From Gammaproteobacteria bacterium (GTDB lineage Bacteria > Pseudomonadota > Gammaproteobacteria > Ga0077536): 33,031 bases of DNA. Positions 2-11,964 of the stretch are shown piece after piece; the first letter of the stretch is position 1; every line of letters begins with the position of its first letter. The DNA lies in assembly GCA_016874535.1 (NCBI GenBank), contig VGUA01000023.1, forward strand, positions 1 to 33,031, given 5' to 3'. The notes under the pieces were generated by a model. It saw only the letters and a program-made list of their open reading frames with translations. It did no database searches and was not told where the DNA came from. Made by a program: the position numbers and the translations under genes.

Positions 2-1696
2 CACCAGAATGTGCTGAAAGGTGACATCCCGGTGCGCGAGCTGGGCGATGACATCTTCATCAATGTGGGCGCAGTGGTGGATGGTCTGGCTGAATTCCGC
101 GAAGTGCCCATTCCGGTCAATCCAACCATCGCTTTCCGCGACACCGCCACCGACGCCTTTGGTGATCCCACCCAGAATCTGCAGGCCGCCACGGTGCTGC
201 TCAATCTGTCGCTCACCAAGGGCAACACCACCTACATGCCACCGGAGCTCGAGCTGCGACTGGCGCCGGTCTTCAATTACAACCGTGCCGAAGTGCGCGA
301 GGCGGGCGTGCTCAGGGCAGATCCGTTGGCCTGTGGTGATTTTGAGCAGTTGGGAGATGTCTTCAATGGTTCGCCGGATTCAACCGAGCCCGGCTTCGGT
401 CTCGACGTGCCGGGCGACGACGGTCTCTTCTCCTCGCCTCCGCCGGTGGCAGAGGTGCAGGATCTCGAGCCTGTGGCGCCGCTGGAGGTCTATCGCCAGC
501 GCGACCACTGCACCAGACATGATTCCTTCGCAGGCATCCAGGAATTCTTTCTCGACTATCACCTGCGGGATGTCTCGCCGCGTTATGACTTCGACAGCAT
601 CCGGGTGGGGATTCAGCCCTTCACCAACGATTTCCGCGGCTTCCTGTTTCAGGATCTGGCCTTTGGTGTGCGCCTGTTCGGTAACCGTGACAACAATCAC
701 TGGCAATACAACCTCGCCTGGTTCCGCCGTATCGAGAAGGACACCAACAGCGGCCTGAACGACATCACCCGTGCGCTGCGCGACGACGATACCTTCCTGT
801 TCAATGTCTACCGACAGGACTTCCCGCTGGTGGGCTTCACTTCCGAGCTCAGCGTCGCGCACAACCGCAACAACGAAGATCACCAGTACCAGGACACCAA
901 TGATTTCGTCGTCCGGCCAGCGATAGTCGGTGCCGCGGCCCAGAATCCCGAGCCCTATCAGGTGACCTATCTCGGCTATTCCGGGGATGGGCATCTGCGC
1001 GCGCTGTGGCCGGAAGGCCGACTCAATCTGACCACCACCACCTATGTGGCGTTGGGCACCCATGACTACAACCCGATTGCGGGCGCAAGCCAGGACGTGC
1101 AGGCCTTCTTTCATGCCAGCGAGCTATCGCGTGACTTCAGCTGGATACGTGTGCGCGGCAGTGTGCTCTATGCCAGTGGTGACAGCGATCCGCTGGATGA
1201 AGATGCCACCGGCTTTGACGCCATTTTCGAGAATCCATTGTTCGCGGGCGCAGACACCAGCTACTGGGTGCGGCAGGGCATTCCTCTGGTTGGCGGTGGG
1301 GCTGTGGCTTTGTCAGGGCGCAACGGCGTGCTGGCCGATCTGCGCTCGACGAAAGAGCAGGGCCAATCCAACTTCGTCAACCCGGGCCTGTCCCTGCTCG
1401 GCGTGGGGGGAGACTTCGACCTCGCGCCCCAGGTGAGGCTGGTCGCAAACGTCAATCATCTGCGCTTTGCAGAGACCGAGACCCTGGAATTCCTGCGGGC
1501 ACAGGAACTGCGCGACAAGGAAATAGGCTTCGATCTCTCGGCCGGGATCCAGTGGCGGCCCTATTTCAACCAGAACATGGTCATCAATGCCTCGGGCGCA
1601 GTCCTGCTCGCCGGTCGTGGGTTGCGTGATCTCTATGGCGGCCAGCGCCATAACACCCTCTATTCGACATTCGTCAATGCGCTCTTCACGTTCTGA
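2..1696 (+). CDS. Outer-membrane beta-barrel protein, 5' end outside the window
   Basis: The frame is open from base 2 and ends in TGA, giving 564 visible residues; the true start lies upstream. The internal GTG at 11 is not a convincing start because coding continues before it. The protein alternates polar and aromatic residues in many short strands and ends in Phe-Thr-Phe, a typical C-terminal signature of outer-membrane barrels recognised by the BAM machinery. There is no heme motif and no recognisable TonB plug. The decaheme gene starts inside its last 20 bases, so the two are probably co-translated. By analogy with porin-cytochrome conduits (MtrB/MtrC, Geobacter Omb/Omc), I infer that it forms a sheath or anchor for the downstream cytochromes. 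I do not recognise a named family, and a simple porin remains possible. Confidence 0.7.
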   Translation, partial: HQNVLKGDIPVRELGDDIFINVGAVVDGLAEFREVPIPVNPTIAFRDTATDAFGDPTQNLQAATVLLNLSLTKGNTTYMPPELELRLAPVFNYNRAEVREAGVLRADPLACGDFEQLGDVFNGSPDSTEPGFGLDVPGDDGLFSSPPPVAEVQDLEPVAPLEVYRQRDHCTRHDSFAGIQEFFLDYHLRDVSPRYDFDSIRVGIQPFTNDFRGFLFQDLAFGVRLFGNRDNNHWQYNLAWFRRIEKDTNSGLNDITRALRDDDTFLFNVYRQDFPLVGFTSELSVAHNRNNEDHQYQDTNDFVVRPAIVGAAAQNPEPYQVTYLGYSGDGHLRALWPEGRLNLTTTTYVALGTHDYNPIAGASQDVQAFFHASELSRDFSWIRVRGSVLYASGDSDPLDEDATGFDAIFENPLFAGADTSYWVRQGIPLVGGGAVALSGRNGVLADLRSTKEQGQSNFVNPGLSLLGVGGDFDLAPQVRLVANVNHLRFAETETLEFLRAQELRDKEIGFDLSAGIQWRPYFNQNMVINASGAVLLAGRGLRDLYGGQRHNTLYSTFVNALFTF

Positions 1697-4600
1697 ACCC
1701 GGGCGCGGCGGCGCAAAACTTACTTTGCAGTTGATGTTGGTACTGCTGACCTTGCTGGGCCTTGCGGCAGACACTGCCGTGGCCTCGGAAGCAGCTCTGG
1801 TGGAGCGCGAGTACGTGATGGCACCGCCCGCTCCCAAATCCCAGTCGCAGGACGCCGCACTGGAGAAATCCACCGGCTGCATGAGCTGCCATCGCGAGAC
1901 GGATCAGCACACCATGCATGCCAACCCTGCCGTGGTGCTTGGTTGCACGGATTGTCATGGCGGTGACGCCTCGGTCGTGCATCAGGACGGCAGCGGTCGG
2001 GAATCACTGAAGAATCCGGACTATCGCGCAGCCATGGAACGGGCGCATGTGCTGCCACGCAATCCGGGGCTATGGAAAAATTCGGCAAACCCCGAGGGCA
2101 GCTACGCCCATCTCAACCGGGAACACGGGGCATTCGTGCGCTTCATCAACCCGGGAGATCTGCGCGTTGCGCGCGAAGCCTGCGGCGCCTGCCACCTGCC
2201 GATCATCGAGTCCCAGGAACGCAGCCTCATGAGCACCTCCGCGATGCTGTGGGGTGGAGCGGCCTACAACAATGGAATCCTGCCCTTCAAACGCTATCTG
2301 CTGGGCGAGTTCTACTCCGAGGATGGCACGGGGTCTGCCGTGCTGAATCCCGTGAGGCCGGAAGATCCCTTCATGGTGAACAAGGGGGTGCTCGACCGCC
2401 TCTACCCCTTGCCGGCGTGGGAGACGGTGCCGCCTGCCGATATCTTCCGGGTGTTCGAGCGTGGCGGACGCGTCATCAACAGTATCTTTCCCGAGCTCGG
2501 CATCCCCAACAACACGGGGCAGTTGCAGCGTCTGGACGAACCGGGTCGGCCGGATTTCAAGCAGAGCAACCGGGGCCCGGGTACCGGACTCCGGGTGGCC
2601 ATTCCGATCCTCAATCTCACCAAGACACGCCTGAACGACCCGCATCTGTGGTTCCTCGGGACCAATGACAATCCGGGGGATTACCGCTCCTCCGGCTGCA
2701 CGGCTTGCCACGTGGTCTATGCGAACGACCGGGAGCCCGGCCACAGTGGCCCCTATGCGGCCTACGGCAATACCGGCAAGAGCCAGACGCGCGATCCAAC
2801 GATTCCCAAGGATCGTTCGGGCCATCCCTTGCGCCACGCTTTCACCCGGGCAATTCCCTCTTCCCAGTGCATGGTCTGCCACATGCACCAGCCGAACATC
2901 TACGTGAATTCGTTCTACGGGTACATGCAATACGACTACGAGCCCGATGCGGCCCGTCTTTTCCCTCCTGAGCAGCACTATCCGTCGGATGAGGAGATTC
3001 ATGAGGTCAACCAGCGCAACCCGGAAGAAGCAGTCATCCGCGGCAACTGGCGTGACCGCGATTTCCTCAAGGATCTCTGGCTGCGCAATGACGAAATGAA
3101 GCACACCCAGTTCGCCGACTATCACGGTCACGGCTGGGTGTTCCGTGCCGTACACAAGCGCAACCGCAAGGGGCAGCTGCTGGATGCGGAAAACCGCGTG
3201 GTGGCGGATGAAGATCCCGACAAATTCAAGAAGACCGTGCACATGGCCTCCATTCACCTGGACAAGGGCATGCACTGCGTGGACTGCCATTTCTCCCAAG
3301 ACATGCACGGCAACGGGCATATCTATGGCGAGGTCGCGGCGGCGATCGAAATCGACTGCGCGGATTGTCATGGCACGGCCCGCAACTACCCCACCTTGCA
3401 TACCAGTGGACCCGCTGCCCAGCCCGGTGGCCGTGATCTCTCCCTGTTGCGTACCCAGGACGGCCGCCCGCGTTTCGAATGGCGTGAGGGCAAGCTGTAC
3501 CAGCGCGCGGCGCTCGACCCGAACAAGGAATGGGAAGTCTCGCTGGTCAAGGATTCGGTGAACCCGGCCCATCCCGACTACAACGGCAAGGCCGCCCGGG
3601 CCAAGCTGATGGCCGCCGGTGAGGCAGGTCGGTCGGGGAAATGGGGTGAAGGGGCCGCGGCGCTCGCCCATGACAATGAAAAGATGACCTGCTACACCTG
3701 TCATACCAGCTGGACCACCAGCTGCGCGGGATGTCATCTACCGATTCAGGCCAACCGCAAGACCGAACGCAATCATTATGAAGGCAAGGCCACCCGCAAC
3801 TACGCCACCTACAACGTGCAGGTGGCGCGGGATGATGTGTTCCAGCTCGGTGTACATGGGCCGGTGAAGCGCAGCCGTATCGCGCCTTTCCGCTCCAGCT
3901 CGGCGCTGGTGCTTTCGTCCCAGAACGCGAACCGCGAGCGCATCTATTACCAGCAGCCCCCGATCTCGGCGAGTGGCTTCTCCAGTCAGGCCTTTGCTCC
4001 GCACTACGCGCACACGGAGCGCAAGACCGAAACCAAGACCTGTTCGGACTGCCATGTCTCGGCCGCAAATGACAACAATGCCATCATGGCGCAGCTGCTG
4101 CTGCAGGGGACGAACTTCGTGAATTTCATCGGGCGCTATGCCTGGGTCGGCTCGGAGGAGCACGTGGAGGCGGTGGGCGTCACCGAATGGGATGAACCGC
4201 AGGCGGTGATCGGCTCCTATCTCCAGAAATACGCCTATCCTGACTGGTATGCGGCACACCAGAAGAACAACCGGGAGATCATGGACATGCCTCACCGGGA
4301 AGCTGCCAATCATCACGGCACGCCGGATGCGGCGCGCTGTCTGCAGATGCGGGGCGAATACCTGTTCGTGGCTGAAGGACGCGGCGGCTTGAGGGTTTAT
4401 GACATTGCCGCCAATGCCAACAAAGGAGTCAGCCAGCGCATCATCACCGCACCCTTCTCACCGCTGGGGCACGATACGCACGTGAAGAGCCGCAACGCGA
4501 CCTGCGTTGCCCTACCCACCAATCAGCCGATTGCACCAGAGCGCAATCAGGGTGAGCTCATGCGCGTCACCAATGAGGAGCAGGCGTTCCATCCGCTGTA

Positions 4601-5519
4601 CCACTACGCCTATCTCGTGGATGCCGAGGAAGGCCTGATTCTGGTCAATGTGGATACCTTGGTGGATGGCGAGGCGCGCAACAATTTCCTCGAACGGGCG
4701 CTGACCTGGAATCCCGATGGTCGTCTGGATGGTGCCCGTCACATCGTGGTGGCCGGTAGCCATGCCTACATCACCACCCCGCGCGGGGTGGAAATCATCT
4801 CTCTCGATGATCCGCTCAATCCCGAGCTTCTCGCCTCCATTGACATGCCGGACGCTCGCGCGAGTGCGCTGCAGTTCCGCTATCTGTACGTGACGGATGC
4901 GCAGGGCCTGCGCGTGGTGGATGTGACCCATCCCGGGCAACCCGTGGTGCTGCCCACGATCATCCCACTCGCGGACGCGCAGCGAGTCTATCTCGCCCGC
5001 ACCTATGCTTATGTGGCGGCGGGTGCGGAGGGTCTCGCGATCGTTGATATCGAACGGGCCGATACGCCCAAGCTCTTCCGCATGTTCGATGCCGAGGGTC
5101 AGCTGAACGATGCGCGCGATGTGGTGGTGGGGAGCACGAATGCCTCGCTCTTCGCCTATGTCGCCGACGGCCGGAATGGACTCAAGGTCATCCAGCTCAC
5201 CTCGCCCGAAAGCCAGCCCGGCTTCTATGGATTCTCTCCGGAGCCGCGACCGGAGCTCATCGCCACCCGACGGACCCAATCGCCAGCGCTGGCCCTGTCC
5301 AAGGGACTGGATCGTGACCGGGCGGTGGACGAGACGGGTCACCAGATTGCCATCATCGGGCGCATCGGCGCGCGTCCTTTCAACAAGGCGGAGATGGAAA
5401 AGCTCTACCTCACACCCGAGGGTCAGCCTTGGGAGGTCACGTACGAGGTGCGTCAGGAAGATTATCTGCCGCAGGTCGGCACCACGCGCGCCCCGGAGGC
5501 ATCGCATGCCACGCCTTGA
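1677..5519 (+). CDS. Decaheme c-type cytochrome with C-terminal LVIVD-repeat propeller
   Basis: This is a 1280-residue exported protein. The chosen ATG gives a basic n-region and a hydrophobic stretch ending near Ala-Val-Ala-Ser, a plausible Sec signal peptide; no strong ribosome site precedes it, and ATG 1734 is an alternative. Ten CXXCH heme-attachment motifs begin at about residues 68, 90, 169, 341, 398, 534, 561, 672, 683 and 789. The stretch from roughly 875 to 1235 has no heme motif. It carries repeated blade-like units such as YVTDAQGLRVVDV and YVAAGAEGLAIVDI, the pattern of LVIVD repeats that are predicted to form a beta-propeller. The gene overlaps both neighbours. I infer a periplasmic or surface electron carrier whose propeller binds a partner or substrate. 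An enzymatic multiheme reductase cannot be excluded. Confidence 0.85.
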   Translation: MRSSRSEPGRGGAKLTLQLMLVLLTLLGLAADTAVASEAALVEREYVMAPPAPKSQSQDAALEKSTGCMSCHRETDQHTMHANPAVVLGCTDCHGGDASVVHQDGSGRESLKNPDYRAAMERAHVLPRNPGLWKNSANPEGSYAHLNREHGAFVRFINPGDLRVAREACGACHLPIIESQERSLMSTSAMLWGGAAYNNGILPFKRYLLGEFYSEDGTGSAVLNPVRPEDPFMVNKGVLDRLYPLPAWETVPPADIFRVFERGGRVINSIFPELGIPNNTGQLQRLDEPGRPDFKQSNRGPGTGLRVAIPILNLTKTRLNDPHLWFLGTNDNPGDYRSSGCTACHVVYANDREPGHSGPYAAYGNTGKSQTRDPTIPKDRSGHPLRHAFTRAIPSSQCMVCHMHQPNIYVNSFYGYMQYDYEPDAARLFPPEQHYPSDEEIHEVNQRNPEEAVIRGNWRDRDFLKDLWLRNDEMKHTQFADYHGHGWVFRAVHKRNRKGQLLDAENRVVADEDPDKFKKTVHMASIHLDKGMHCVDCHFSQDMHGNGHIYGEVAAAIEIDCADCHGTARNYPTLHTSGPAAQPGGRDLSLLRTQDGRPRFEWREGKLYQRAALDPNKEWEVSLVKDSVNPAHPDYNGKAARAKLMAAGEAGRSGKWGEGAAALAHDNEKMTCYTCHTSWTTSCAGCHLPIQANRKTERNHYEGKATRNYATYNVQVARDDVFQLGVHGPVKRSRIAPFRSSSALVLSSQNANRERIYYQQPPISASGFSSQAFAPHYAHTERKTETKTCSDCHVSAANDNNAIMAQLLLQGTNFVNFIGRYAWVGSEEHVEAVGVTEWDEPQAVIGSYLQKYAYPDWYAAHQKNNREIMDMPHREAANHHGTPDAARCLQMRGEYLFVAEGRGGLRVYDIAANANKGVSQRIITAPFSPLGHDTHVKSRNATCVALPTNQPIAPERNQGELMRVTNEEQAFHPLYHYAYLVDAEEGLILVNVDTLVDGEARNNFLERALTWNPDGRLDGARHIVVAGSHAYITTPRGVEIISLDDPLNPELLASIDMPDARASALQFRYLYVTDAQGLRVVDVTHPGQPVVLPTIIPLADAQRVYLARTYAYVAAGAEGLAIVDIERADTPKLFRMFDAEGQLNDARDVVVGSTNASLFAYVADGRNGLKVIQLTSPESQPGFYGFSPEPRPELIATRRTQSPALALSKGLDRDRAVDETGHQIAIIGRIGARPFNKAEMEKLYLTPEGQPWEVTYEVRQEDYLPQVGTTRAPEASHATP

Positions 5520-6880: not shown

Positions 6881-9331
6881 ATGGGCATGATGTTCGAGCA
6901 GGTGGCCGCCGACTACGACATCGTCATCGTCGGCTCGGGACCTGCCGGGCTCGCGGCAGCGTCACGGGCGGCCGAGCGCGGCAACCGGCATGTGCTGCTG
7001 GAGGCCGAGCACCATGCTGCGGATACCATCTACCAGTACCAGAAGGGCAAGCACGTGATGGCTGAGCCCGGGTATCTGCCTCTGCGCAGCGGGCTGGCGT
7101 TTGCAGAGGGTCGTCGGGAGGAGATCCTGTTCGCCTGGGATGAGGCGATTCTGCGGCAGGGAATCAACATCGCCTACGGACACAAGGTGAGCGCCATCAA
7201 GCGTGCCGGGCCGGACGCGGCCTTCGAGGTGGACTGCGAGAACGGCAAGCGCTTCACCGCCCGCACGGTGGTGCTCGGCATCGGCTTGCAGGGCAATCCG
7301 CGCAAACTGGGAGTGCCGGGCGAAGATGATCCGCGAGTCCAGTACACGCTTGCGGATCCGGAGGCTTTCAAGGGCGAGGCTGTGGTGGTGGTTGGGGCTG
7401 GAGATGCAGGCATCGAGAACGCCTGTGCGCTGGCGGCCCGCAATGAAGTCCACCTCATGAACCGTTCCGAGGAGTTCACGCGCTGCAAGGACGGCAACCG
7501 CAAGCTGGTGAACTCTGCTGAGAAGGCCGGGCGCGTGCGGGTCTGGCATTCCTCATTTCCCGAGCGGCTGGAAGCAACGCCGGATGGGCGCTTGGCCTAT
7601 GTGTTCAATACCAAGGATGGGCAGCACAACCTCCCGTGCGACCGCGTGATCGCCCGACTCGGCGCCATCCCGCCACGCAAGCTGGTGGAGAGCTTCGGTG
7701 TCATCTTTCCAAATCCGAATCCGGAGGCCATCCCGGATCTGAGCGAGACTTACGAATCCAACGTCCCGGGGCTGTTCATCGTCGGTGCCTTGGGTGGTTG
7801 TCCACTCATCAAGCAGGCGATGAACCAAGGCTACGAGGTGGTGGAAACCATCAACGGCAGCCCGGTCGAGCCTGCAGATGAACCGCTGATCCGCGAGCGT
7901 CTCCAAGCCTGGATGGCGCTGGCCGAGCCGTTCCCCGGCGCGGCTCCGCTGGCGTCAAGTCCCGTCAAGGTGGGGGAAGTGATCGAGCGTATCCGGAGCC
8001 TGTCGCCGTTCCTGGCGGACATCACTCCGCTACAGATGCGCGAACTGCTGCTCGAATCCACCCTGCATGTCCATGGTCGGGGAAGCACGGTCTTTGCAGA
8101 AGGGGATTACACCAACACCTTCTTCACCGTACTCCGGGGTAACGCATGGGTCCTCGCATTCACCTTGGGTCCTGGCAGTTTCTTCGGGGAAATGGGCCTC
8201 ATCTCGGGGCGCCGTCGCACGGCCACTGTCAGCGCCACGCCCGGCTGCGTGCTCATGGAGACCCCGCGCCGGACCATCCTCAAGCTCATCGCCTCTTCCG
8301 CAGGCGTCGCGCGACGCATCGATCAGGCGTTCCTTGGCAACGCGGTGCGCCACTACTTCGGCAAAGCCATGAGCGCCGAAGCGCTTGCCAACCTCATCGG
8401 CGAAGGAGTCCCCGTGCGCCGCTTTCAGGCAGGCCAAATCCTCTTCAAGGAAGGCGATGAAGCCGATGGGCTTTATCTCATCCGGCGGGGTTCAGTGGCG
8501 GTTACCCGCGGTAGCGGCGAGCGGGCTCAGGTGATGAGTCACATGGGGGCTGGAGAATATTTCGGCGAGATGGCCTTGCTCACGGAGGCTCCGCGCTCGG
8601 CAACGGTCACAGCCACCGTCCTGACTGAAGTACTGGTGCTGGAGGCGGCGCGCCTCAAGGCCGAGGTCGCGCACAACGAAGCCTTGCGCAAGTCCCTGCA
8701 GGAAATGCTGCTGGACCGCGTGCGCATGGATGCGATGCGTCAGGAGCAGGTCGATGACGAGCACTCCGCCATCGCGCACTTCTTCATGCGCCAAGGGGCC
8801 GGCGAGGCCTCCAACATGCTCGTCATTGACGAGACCCTCTGCATCCAGTGCAACAACTGCGAGATCGCTTGCGCGGAGTCTCACCAGGGAGTGTCGCGCT
8901 TGCGCCGCGAGACAGGCCCGACGTTCGCCCATCTGCACATCGCGGAGGCCTGTCGGCATTGTGAGCAGCCCTACTGCATGAAGGATTGTCCGCCTGACGC
9001 CATCAGCCGCAGTGCGAGTGGCGAAGTCTTCATCTCAGATGCCTGCATCGGATGCGGCAATTGCGAGAGCAACTGCCCGTACGGCGCGGTCACCATGACG
9101 CCCCGCAAGCCTGCCAAGTGGGGTGGGGGATGGCTCTGGTTGCTGTTCGGTCTTGGCAAGGCGCCGGGCAATCGCGCCCCGGAATACGATCCCGAGGCGC
9201 GCAAGGTTGCTGCCAAATGCGATCTCTGCCGGGACTTGAAGGGCGGACCGCGCTGCGTGAGTTCCTGCCCGACGGGCGCTGCCCAGCGGGTGTCGGCGAA
9301 AACCTTGTTCGAGACCTTGGGCAAGGCATGA
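6881..9331 (+). CDS. Fused FAD/NAD(P)H reductase, two cNMP-binding domains and 4x[4Fe-4S] ferredoxin
   Basis: This 816-residue protein has no signal peptide, so it is probably cytoplasmic. Residues 1 to about 335 are a thioredoxin-reductase-like flavoprotein with the FAD motif GSGPAG (18-23) and the NAD(P)H motif GAGDAG (172-177). The redox CXXC normally found just before the second motif is absent. Two cyclic-nucleotide-binding folds follow, at about 365-475 (FGEMG at 435) and 490-610 (FGEM at 561). The C-terminal part from about 650 is a DmsB/HycB-like ferredoxin with 16 cysteines in four sets starting at 654, 691, 722 and 780. NAD(P)H electrons would pass through FAD to the iron-sulfur chain. 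I infer that the cytochromes of the same operon are the eventual acceptors, although a membrane step is not encoded here. Confidence 0.88.
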   Translation: MGMMFEQVAADYDIVIVGSGPAGLAAASRAAERGNRHVLLEAEHHAADTIYQYQKGKHVMAEPGYLPLRSGLAFAEGRREEILFAWDEAILRQGINIAYGHKVSAIKRAGPDAAFEVDCENGKRFTARTVVLGIGLQGNPRKLGVPGEDDPRVQYTLADPEAFKGEAVVVVGAGDAGIENACALAARNEVHLMNRSEEFTRCKDGNRKLVNSAEKAGRVRVWHSSFPERLEATPDGRLAYVFNTKDGQHNLPCDRVIARLGAIPPRKLVESFGVIFPNPNPEAIPDLSETYESNVPGLFIVGALGGCPLIKQAMNQGYEVVETINGSPVEPADEPLIRERLQAWMALAEPFPGAAPLASSPVKVGEVIERIRSLSPFLADITPLQMRELLLESTLHVHGRGSTVFAEGDYTNTFFTVLRGNAWVLAFTLGPGSFFGEMGLISGRRRTATVSATPGCVLMETPRRTILKLIASSAGVARRIDQAFLGNAVRHYFGKAMSAEALANLIGEGVPVRRFQAGQILFKEGDEADGLYLIRRGSVAVTRGSGERAQVMSHMGAGEYFGEMALLTEAPRSATVTATVLTEVLVLEAARLKAEVAHNEALRKSLQEMLLDRVRMDAMRQEQVDDEHSAIAHFFMRQGAGEASNMLVIDETLCIQCNNCEIACAESHQGVSRLRRETGPTFAHLHIAEACRHCEQPYCMKDCPPDAISRSASGEVFISDACIGCGNCESNCPYGAVTMTPRKPAKWGGGWLWLLFGLGKAPGNRAPEYDPEARKVAAKCDLCRDLKGGPRCVSSCPTGAAQRVSAKTLFETLGKA

Positions 9332-9403: not shown

Positions 9404-9865
9404 ATGATTCCACCACGCGTGAATCTGGACATCGTAAGTGAACGCATCGGTCCCTACGCCGAACAGGATCAGACGCGCGAAGAGCGCTTTGCCATCTACC
9501 GGGAGCTCATAGGCTTCGTGCCCCCGCGCAAAGAGGCGCGCATCAACGTGACCGGGGCACTGGACCCCACGCTGCTCGAACTGCAGGAGCAGATGCGCGC
9601 GCATGCCATGTACCCCAAGTGCTTCGATGTGAAGACCTGCCAGCTCATGCTGTTTGGCATGCTATTGATGGATCTCAACGACGCCGCTGTCCTGCACGCC
9701 ATTGCCGCCCGCGGTGCAGGCGCGACCTGGGACGAGTTGCAGGCAACGATCGGTCTCGCTTTCCTGTTCCGAGGGCTGTCCGCCGCCAATCGTGGTGCCG
9801 AGATACTGGCCCATGTCGCCAAGCGCGAAGCGGAGGAGGAGGCTGGGGCAAATGCCGGAGCCTGA
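9404..9865 (+). CDS. Carboxymuconolactone decarboxylase (AhpD-like) family protein
   Basis: This 153-residue protein starts at an ATG preceded by GGGAGA. The helical central part, with the segment AAVLHAIAARGAGATWDELQ, resembles the CMD/AhpD fold, in which a His-containing helix is followed by a glycine turn and a second helix. The CXXC pair of AhpD-type peroxidase relatives is missing from this helix; the only nearby cysteines are spaced wider and sit upstream. That favours a decarboxylase-like or non-redox role. The last 14 bases overlap the start of the dioxygenase gene, so the two are probably translated together and act in one ring-cleavage pathway. The substrate is unknown and the family assignment is moderate. 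Confidence 0.6.
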   Translation: MIPPRVNLDIVSERIGPYAEQDQTREERFAIYRELIGFVPPRKEARINVTGALDPTLLELQEQMRAHAMYPKCFDVKTCQLMLFGMLLMDLNDAAVLHAIAARGAGATWDELQATIGLAFLFRGLSAANRGAEILAHVAKREAEEEAGANAGA

Positions 9866-10733
9866 GGCATCTGCGACCAAAGGGGGTGTCATTGCGAGCG
9901 CCATCGTGGCGCACGTGCCGACCCTCGGAGTGCCCGCCAACACTCCCGCCTATCAGCAGACTCTCGTTAATGCCGAGCGCAGCATCGGCGCCGCCTTGCG
10001 CACCACTCTCAGGCCCGATGTGTGGGTGATTCTCTCCAGTCATTGGGTTGCCACCTTTGACTGGCCGGTGACATGCCAGGCACGGCATCGGGGCCATTGT
10101 GTGGCCAGCGAGGCACCGCAACTCATGCCGGGCAGCCCTTATGATTATCCGGGTGACCCGGAGCTTGGCGCAGCCTTGGTCGATGCATTCAATGCCGGAG
10201 GGGTGCCTTCGGTGCGCAACGAGTCCAGCCATTTTGTCTGGGACTATGGGACGTTCGTGCCCCTCATGCATCTGGACCCCGATGCGGAGATTCCGGTTGT
10301 GGTGCTGCCCTCGGTCCTGCAGGCCACCATCCACGAGTGCCTTGAGGCCGGATCGCTGGTACACGCGACTGCGCAACGCCTGGGCCGACGGGCGGTTTTC
10401 CTCGCGAGCACAGCCCTCAGCCATGTCCTTGTGCGTGGTCGCGAGCATAGGCCGACACCGGAACGTGTTGAGGCTGACCAGCGTTTTCTCGTGCAGTTGG
10501 AGGCAGGAGACATCAAAACCTCAATCACCGGTTTCGACGCTTACAGAAAGTTGTCCGGACTCGAAATGGGCGGGCGACCCTTGGCCACGATGCTGGGCGT
10601 GACTCGGGCCATGGCGACGGCTGGTGGACCACTCAAGGGGCGGCAGTACGGCGATTATGCCCAGTCATCCGGTAGTGGCAATGTGGTGATGGCACTGGCA
10701 CCTGCACCAACGCTCGCGCGATTGACGAACTGA
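9852..10733 (+). CDS. Class III extradiol ring-cleavage dioxygenase, LigB family
   Basis: This 293-residue protein starts at the ATG behind a clear GGAGGAGG ribosome site. It shows the LigB-type iron site: His near 21 (VAHVPTLG), His near 64 (SSHW) and a plausible Glu near 238 (LEMGGRPLATMLG). A catalytic-type His lies near 190 (TALSH). Family members cleave catecholic rings such as protocatechuate, gallate, 3-O-methylgallate or homoprotocatechuate with Fe(II) and O2. The adjacent 4-hydroxybenzoate hydroxylase remnant would yield protocatechuate, so meta cleavage of protocatechuate or a methoxylated analogue is a reasonable inference. No LigA-like small subunit is nearby, which favours a single-subunit enzyme. 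Confidence 0.8.
   Translation: MPEPEASATKGGVIASAIVAHVPTLGVPANTPAYQQTLVNAERSIGAALRTTLRPDVWVILSSHWVATFDWPVTCQARHRGHCVASEAPQLMPGSPYDYPGDPELGAALVDAFNAGGVPSVRNESSHFVWDYGTFVPLMHLDPDAEIPVVVLPSVLQATIHECLEAGSLVHATAQRLGRRAVFLASTALSHVLVRGREHRPTPERVEADQRFLVQLEAGDIKTSITGFDAYRKLSGLEMGGRPLATMLGVTRAMATAGGPLKGRQYGDYAQSSGSGNVVMALAPAPTLARLTN

Positions 10734-10767: not shown

Positions 10768-11964
<1,197 letters not shown>

Follow-up and report, generated by a model that had tools for sequence, protein, structure and literature searches.

What can a ten-heme cytochrome do when its chain continues into a β-propeller? The question is raised by one gene of contig VGUA01000023.1, from the gammaproteobacterial assembly GCA_016874535.1 (lineage Ga0077536), which we analysed over its whole length of 33,031 nucleotides (hereafter the window). 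A preliminary description of the sequence had presented the gene product, here called the decaheme-propeller, as a decaheme cytochrome joined to an LVIVD propeller; its ten CXXCH motifs, a match to the repeat family PF08309 and a structural model with its match to PDB entry 1l0q_A bear this out. Our answer, to which we give a probability of about one half, is that the protein forms the outer end of a trans-envelope electron chain encoded by seven genes, as its terminal subunit, and is docked through its propeller at an outer-membrane partner. The evidence from sequence and prediction consists of the heme motifs, the propeller fold, the conservation of both halves and the conserved gene neighbourhood. 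The gene and its two halves are placed as follows.

1677 to 5519, + strand: decaheme-propeller cytochrome, 1280 residues, with a hydrophobic signal segment at residues 19-37
1788 to 4121, + strand: cytochrome region, about residues 38-815, with all ten CXXCH motifs and 13 of the 16 further conserved histidines
4131 to 5312, + strand: propeller, predicted seven-bladed, residues 819-1212, from PF08309, the model and the fold match

The frame of this gene is already open from an ATG at 1587. The ten motifs, announced for the first 800 residues, are found at residues 68, 90, 169, 341, 398, 534, 561, 672, 683 and 789, where 5000 shuffles of the sequence gave a mean of 0.0154 motifs and a maximum of 2. 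In 80 aligned sequences a further sixteen histidines show at least 95% conservation, enough in number for a second ligand per heme. With multiple CXXCH motifs and an export signal, the protein should carry ten hemes as a multiheme c-type cytochrome. The Cytochrome_C7 profile was slightly above its cut-off (25.9 versus 24.8 bits). In MtrC and OmcA, two pentaheme domains alternate with barrel-like domains. The arrangement is different here, as had been noticed: successive motifs are separated by 22, 79, 172, 57, 136, 27, 111, 11 and 106 residues, without a grouping into five and five. At E 0.1, none of the Pfam or NCBIfam models of the MtrC/OmcA family matched. The best named match was the ExtM family NF040943 (E 2.7e-21, 75.5 bits, far under the equivalog cut-off of 800), and the PDB sequences contained no relative at E 0.01. 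Homologues that are known enzymes with a defined soluble substrate, the outcome named beforehand as fatal to the proposal, were not found among PDB sequences or in open-licence papers, though ExtM, a remote relative, belongs to a cluster needed for the reduction of soluble selenite and tellurite.

The second half of the protein matches PF08309 with 53.8 bits (cut-off 20.2, E 1.2e-14), with a single stretch significant alone. Where at least four blade-like units had been seen, a simple pattern finds five and the model predicts seven. The AlphaFold2 model, which covers residues 58-1256 and was built on the 80-sequence alignment, has a mean predicted local confidence (pLDDT) of 77.9 and a predicted template-modelling score (pTM) of 0.84; most of the propeller exceeds a pLDDT of 90, with lower values around model positions 861-873. 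The structure prediction that the preliminary description had called for, performed without hemes, thus folds the repeat region into a predicted propeller. Its best PDB match is 1l0q_A, a YVTN propeller from an archaeal surface-layer protein (Z 29.2, root-mean-square deviation (rmsd) 2.2, 275 residues), and extends over model positions 762-1155, i.e. residues 819-1212. The fold matches include three designed proteins with 7-bladed in their titles; because an eight-bladed design is also in the Foldseek list, seven is the likeliest, not a measured, blade count. With PF08309 above its cut-off and this fold, the tail is predicted to be an LVIVD propeller. Two of its cysteines, Cys888 and Cys943, are invariant in the 80 aligned sequences; in an exported protein, a disulfide would fit this pair. 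When the whole model was used as the query, nearly all matches were propellers, so that the cytochrome half was hardly probed. Among the Foldseek matches, cytochrome cd1 nitrite reductase also joins a c-type heme domain to a propeller, the match coming from the propeller part; the cd1 propeller holds the d1 heme.

Are the two halves kept together in other organisms? A scan of species genomes gave at least 585 loci, the best 80 of which formed our homologue set, and since only the best-scoring rows were taken this set is biased towards close relatives. Homologues with both halves proved to be common, and all 80 have exactly ten CXXCH motifs within the matched region. The alignment (A2) holds 79 of the 80 homologues (L058 was left out) and the window protein. 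Identity ranges from 59% to 90% with 7 homologues and from 62% to 93% with 79; the nearest named record among the matches listed is a gammaproteobacterial bin (L026, 91%). The loci span Alpha-, Beta- and Gammaproteobacteria, with Haliea, Parahaliea, Steroidobacter, Limnobacter, Duganella, Stagnimonas and Nitrosomonas among the record titles. Three titles (L029, L053 and L055) give metagenome bins the name Klebsiella pneumoniae or Bordetella parapertussis, and at least that of L029 looks wrong. At E 1e-100 the protein was present in 11 of 398 genomes drawn evenly from the phylum, the window's own being counted, and in 7 of the 36 genomes of the window's family. Plasmid records matched in 17 cases; 13 of them, all sphingomonad, contain at least 80% of the protein at 54-59% identity, and on the plasmids listed its annotation goes no further than hypothetical protein or multiheme c-type cytochrome. 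A viral origin was rejected: 12 stretches fitted a pattern and none a relative.

The genes around it suggest the company in which the protein may work. A set of seven recurs, encoding a flavin/cyclic-nucleotide-binding (cNMP)/Fe-S protein (flavo-FeS protein below), an inner-membrane protein, a second decaheme cytochrome, an HbpS-like protein, a barrel, the decaheme-propeller and a pentaheme cytochrome. The window contains three of the six partners.

2 to 1696, + strand: barrel, C-terminal 564 residues, its N-terminus cut by the contig start
5506 to 6858, + strand: c554-like pentaheme cytochrome, start at 5506 or 5530, four CXXCH and one CX4CH, hydrophobic N-terminus
6881 to 9331, + strand: cytoplasmic oxidoreductase (the flavo-FeS protein), with Pyr_redox_3, cNMP_binding (two stretches) and Fer4 families including PF13247

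In this genome the set is divided between two contigs, the window and G000:C96, whose ends cut the barrel gene: the remaining barrel part is on C96 (locus L025, 1-596, minus strand), followed by the HbpS-like, inner decaheme and membrane-protein genes. All seven genes are consecutive in a sister genome (G003). Neighbours were counted by tblastn in the 38 of the 80 loci chosen for having at least 9 kb on both flanks: the HbpS-like and barrel genes were present in all 38, the inner-membrane protein, inner decaheme and flavo-FeS genes in 36 each, and the pentaheme gene in 25. At two loci (L077 and L086) only the HbpS-like protein, the barrel and the decaheme-propeller were found. In the draw of 398 genomes, the 11 carriers all fall within the 21 genomes that have the inner-membrane protein at E 1e-6, and one further genome (G190) has the inner decaheme, the HbpS-like protein and the barrel as far as its contig end. 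Directly upstream of the cytochrome cluster, Sphingobium herbicidovorans has genes for a ShlB-type secretion protein and a hypothetical protein of 2092 residues (L012, 1494-9647), perhaps a two-partner secretion pair; the arrangement in Sphingobium sp. TomMM7A (L014) is similar.

Simple properties of the partners suggest where each would act. The flavo-FeS protein has FAD and NAD(P)H domains but no hydrophobic segment, matches PF13247 (36.2 bits, cut-off 26.2) and has 16 cysteines in its last 165 residues with a spacing for four [4Fe-4S] clusters. Two genomes of one other genus encode it as a single chain with the inner-membrane protein, a fusion that speaks for direct electron exchange between the two. 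The fused genes (L141, 9850-13206, and L144, 3052-6423; 1118 and 1123 residues) are followed by one for a cytochrome with nine CXXCH and one CX4CH, and neither barrel nor decaheme-propeller was recognised within the stretches read at these loci. In the membrane protein of the PCC3 and PCC4 systems, two WX3HX13H motifs and an SGXXG motif accompany five helices, and two b-hemes were proposed (He et al. 2017, PMC5566968). Both WX3HX13H motifs are kept in 60 of the 61 homologues of our inner-membrane protein, as is SGXXG in 60 of 61, and the copy of the window's genome has them all; the sole exceptions are L102, which lacks one strict WX3HX13H although two HX13H are kept, and L030, without a strict SGXXG. 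The inner decaheme, with a single hydrophobic segment at residues 31-49, would be membrane-anchored; it has ten motifs in 54 of 57 open reading frames and nine in three. Its similarities to the MtrC/MtrF domain PF22113 (38.5 versus 30 bits in Sphingobium, under the cut-off in two others) and, weakly, to DmsE/MtrA-type decahemes (27.9 bits, cut-off 192.2) suggest that some members of the set are remotely related to the cytochromes of known conduits. The HbpS-like family PF03928 was found in the window's genome and in Sphingobium, not in the homologue of L022. The pentaheme protein matches PF13435 (34 bits, cut-off 20.8), and its pattern of four motifs plus one is present in all 43 homologous open reading frames above 380 residues.

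The barrel model is that of a protein from the sister genome. The window piece corresponds to residues 197-762 (89%) and the C96 piece to residues 15-200 (76%) of an intact sister protein of 762 residues; the window part matched no Pfam or NCBIfam family at E 0.1, and an SH3-like domain at the barrel N-terminus was just under its cut-off (22.7 versus 24.1 bits). The barrel alignment (A4) holds 64 of 70 barrel open reading frames (L032, L058, L059, L064, L077 and L084 were left out). For the sister protein, AlphaFold2 predicted 18 long strands, as counted from the listed elements, with a pTM of 0.70. Its best PDB match is AlgE (Z 27.4, rmsd 3.1, 363 residues), closely followed by OccK-type channels; no AlgE sequence family matched the barrel, and the likeness is one of shape only.

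The seven proteins can be arranged in a plausible electron path. NAD(P)H would most likely give up its electrons at the cytoplasmic flavin/[4Fe-4S] protein; from there they would traverse the inner membrane by way of two presumed b-hemes of the membrane protein and continue along the membrane-anchored periplasmic decaheme and the pentaheme cytochrome. At the outer membrane they would reach the decaheme-propeller, whose ten hemes would act both as a wire and as a terminal redox surface. The propeller could then attach the subunit to a partner, the AlgE-like barrel and the HbpS-like protein being the best candidates: given the gene neighbourhood, either is a likelier target than a mineral, and such a docking role is plausible. 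Here we infer heme attachment, the b-hemes, the order and outward direction of flow, the docking role, and a substrate at or beyond the outer membrane.

The direction of flow could be the reverse, in which case the decaheme-propeller would draw electrons from outside the cell, for instance from Fe(II), Mn(II) or reduced humics, and the chain would deliver them to the quinone pool or, uphill, to NAD(P)+. For PCC3 and PCC4, with the same inner-membrane-protein signature, He et al. propose inward flow (PMC5566968). The hosts can probably use oxygen, since a heme-copper oxidase was found in all 16 carriers searched. Photosynthetic reaction-centre genes are present in the window's genome and in 5 of these 16 carriers in all. 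The former has two such genes (PF00124; contig C15, 12263-13950) besides its heme-copper oxidase, so that the host may be an aerobic anoxygenic phototroph. The reaction-centre genes are not a general companion, however: they occur in 4 of the 11 carriers against 31 of the 398 genomes (p 0.007, or 0.03 without the window's genome, relatedness being ignored), and, within the family, in 2 of 7 carriers against 6 of 36 genomes (p 0.33). On these counts the link between phototrophy and the decaheme-propeller is weak. The NAD(P)H site of the flavo-FeS partner would, in turn, favour outward flow on energetic grounds. We lean somewhat towards outward flow, and an inward conduit as just described seems unlikely.

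Several observations weigh against the trans-envelope chain ending in the decaheme-propeller. The inner-membrane module was absent within the flanks of two of the 38 well-flanked loci, and 13 of them had no recognised pentaheme gene. A simple hydropathy scan of the membrane protein from the window's genome gave four peaks, two of them overlapping, and not five clear helices. The model of the decaheme-propeller is that of a protein chain without hemes. The cNMP domains, with the FHA domains and phosphatase neighbours seen elsewhere, fit a regulatory or stress role as well. The decaheme-propeller has no lipobox, nor any cysteine ahead of its first heme motif. Finally, a predicted 18-strand AlgE-like barrel is perhaps narrow for a multiheme plug. 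On this last point, ExtB of Geobacter, part of a genetically supported conduit, has 18 predicted transmembrane segments (PMC6148476), which makes 18 strands compatible with a conduit.

The decaheme-propeller could instead be a periplasmic terminal reductase or oxidase lying under an AlgE-like pore; its substrate, a small molecule or a polymer, would come through the pore and be handled by the propeller and the HbpS-like protein. No lipobox in the homologues is credible: a loose pattern matches 4 of 79, and by eye these matches lie ahead of the signal core or within it. Moreover, the barrel resembles AlgE; the HbpS-like gene accompanies every well-flanked locus; and the remote similarity is to ExtM, in whose cluster the porin ExtI is required for selenite and tellurite to be reduced normally (PMC5877670). 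On the other hand, no catalytic heme or substrate site was identified, and a conserved chain of ten hemes would exceed the need of a soluble substrate. Such an enzyme, though a serious alternative, seems unlikely to us. The decaheme-propeller may sit outside the barrel, inside it or plugged into it; the cell-surface placing implied in the preliminary description was not borne out, given a signal segment without a lipobox and a barrel predicted to be AlgE-like and 18-stranded.

The absence of a lipobox also bears on the more familiar possibility of an outer-surface lipoprotein cytochrome of the MtrC/OmcA type with an added domain. Ten heme motifs beside an outer-membrane barrel gene would suit it, and PF22113 is matched in Sphingobium, though by the neighbouring inner decaheme and not by the decaheme-propeller. 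The latter lacks any match to the family at E 0.1, a lipobox and the expected motif layout; it is not an MtrC-like surface lipoprotein, and surface anchoring is unsupported. The MtrB and PioB barrels have about 26 strands, and MtrB sheathes MtrA; the barrel found here is not MtrB-like in predicted strand count. We rejected this variant, which retains hardly any probability. As in MtrCAB, MtoAB and PioAB, then, a barrel gene stands beside multiheme cytochromes, including a decaheme; in contrast to them, the decaheme-propeller has no family match, no lipoprotein anchor and an added propeller, and the barrel has 18 predicted strands.

How does the set compare with other systems? Like PCC4, it has a porin, multiheme cytochromes, a membrane protein with the WX3HX13H and SGXXG signature and an adjoining PF13247 Fe-S protein, but where the PCC4 cytochromes have 4, 5 and 10 hemes, here they have 10, 10 and 5, one decaheme carries a propeller and an HbpS-like protein is added (PMC5566968, as far as its available passages go). 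The cytochrome sets being different, we do not equate the system with PCC4 and regard it as a variant among the putative porin-cytochrome systems. A contig of 9126 bases (L143) encodes a tetraheme cytochrome, a cNMP/Fer4 protein, a membrane protein and a ten-heme cytochrome related to the window set; its content resembles the description of PCC4, and we would guess that it is one. Its first gene did not match the barrel of the window set (no verified PCC4 porin was compared), the contig has no decaheme-propeller, and its genome is not among the 11 carriers. The Geobacter extHIJKLMNOPQS cluster similarly combines a porin, several multiheme cytochromes, a b-type cytochrome and an Fe-S subunit; it differs in that ExtM has 12 hemes and 68 kDa, and in having Rieske and bc-type partners where the flavo-FeS protein stands here (PMC5877670, in the passages available). 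In Gallionellaceae, a ten-heme ‘Forkhead-associated protein’ (cluster 403) is listed under ‘Other’ for 27 of 87 iron-oxidiser genomes; by description alone it is like the inner decaheme, and the accessible part of that paper mentions no propeller or barrel partner for it (PMC10734462). The large multiheme cytochrome of the Occ cluster (cited in PMC13264449), reportedly present in the manganese-reducing betaproteobacterium Candidatus Dechloromonas occultata, is a lead only.

The propeller itself has several counterparts. NHL repeats, such as those of UetHI, form propellers. In the Uet complex, UetHI is encoded with an undecaheme cytochrome and a barrel, but its repeats are separate proteins, the comparison being one of descriptions only (PMC10734462). 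LVIVD-repeat surface proteins of archaea and bacteria share the repeat family of the decaheme-propeller (PMC2447325); in the portions of the literature at hand, unlike here, a multiheme cytochrome half is not mentioned for them. An LVIVD propeller was predicted in a 2007 title referenced in PMC4758615, and Methanosarcina barkeri expresses one pfam08309 protein at a higher level during direct interspecies electron transfer (PMC6315138, from a partial text). Searches of open-licence PubMed Central text, supplements, subscription papers and preprints apart, brought up no account of the decaheme-propeller system: in the passages returned, propellers mentioned together with decahemes and porins concern FoxY, and those with LVIVD and cytochrome do not bear on a cytochrome.

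Elsewhere in the window, a pobA-like 4-hydroxybenzoate 3-monooxygenase gene is split on the + strand into 10774-11532 (profile positions 4-251) and, in another frame, 11605-11964 (276-391), an apparent frameshift; it is adjoined by a gene for a LigB-type dioxygenase (9702-10733).

Control of the pathway may involve signalling. In Sphingobium sp. TomMM7A, a gene annotated as cAMP phosphodiesterase CpdA lies between two parts of the cluster. Of three inner decahemes checked, that of L022 has an FHA domain above the cut-off; it is under the cut-off in Sphingobium and absent in the window's genome. At L019 (3621-7619), PP2C-type phosphatase and FHA-type proteins, recognised by eye, are encoded beside the pentaheme gene, and by similarity to these genes a PP2C-type phosphatase is nearby in 12 of the 80 loci and a separate FHA protein in 12 of 80. 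Together with the cNMP domains, these features suggest gating by a second messenger and by phosphorylation. Drawn out in full, this would be a widespread pathway of oxygen-using proteobacteria, cyclic-nucleotide-gated and in some lineages under FHA/phosphorylation control, that takes NAD(P)H electrons to a propeller-docked decaheme at an AlgE-like pore and not to an MtrAB wire-in-barrel; we put this forward only tentatively, well short of an even chance.

If that fuller picture is true, it would provide an alternative route for respiratory electrons to the outer membrane, distinct from the MtrAB-type wire-in-barrel. The family is common (at least 585 loci and 11 of the 398 sampled genomes); its carriers include named strains in culture and sphingomonad plasmids. 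The decaheme, with its propeller and its conserved partners, can be expressed and mutated in such cultured strains, and if it does form an envelope electron pathway in oxygen respirers, what these bacteria reduce or oxidise at their outer membrane becomes testable.

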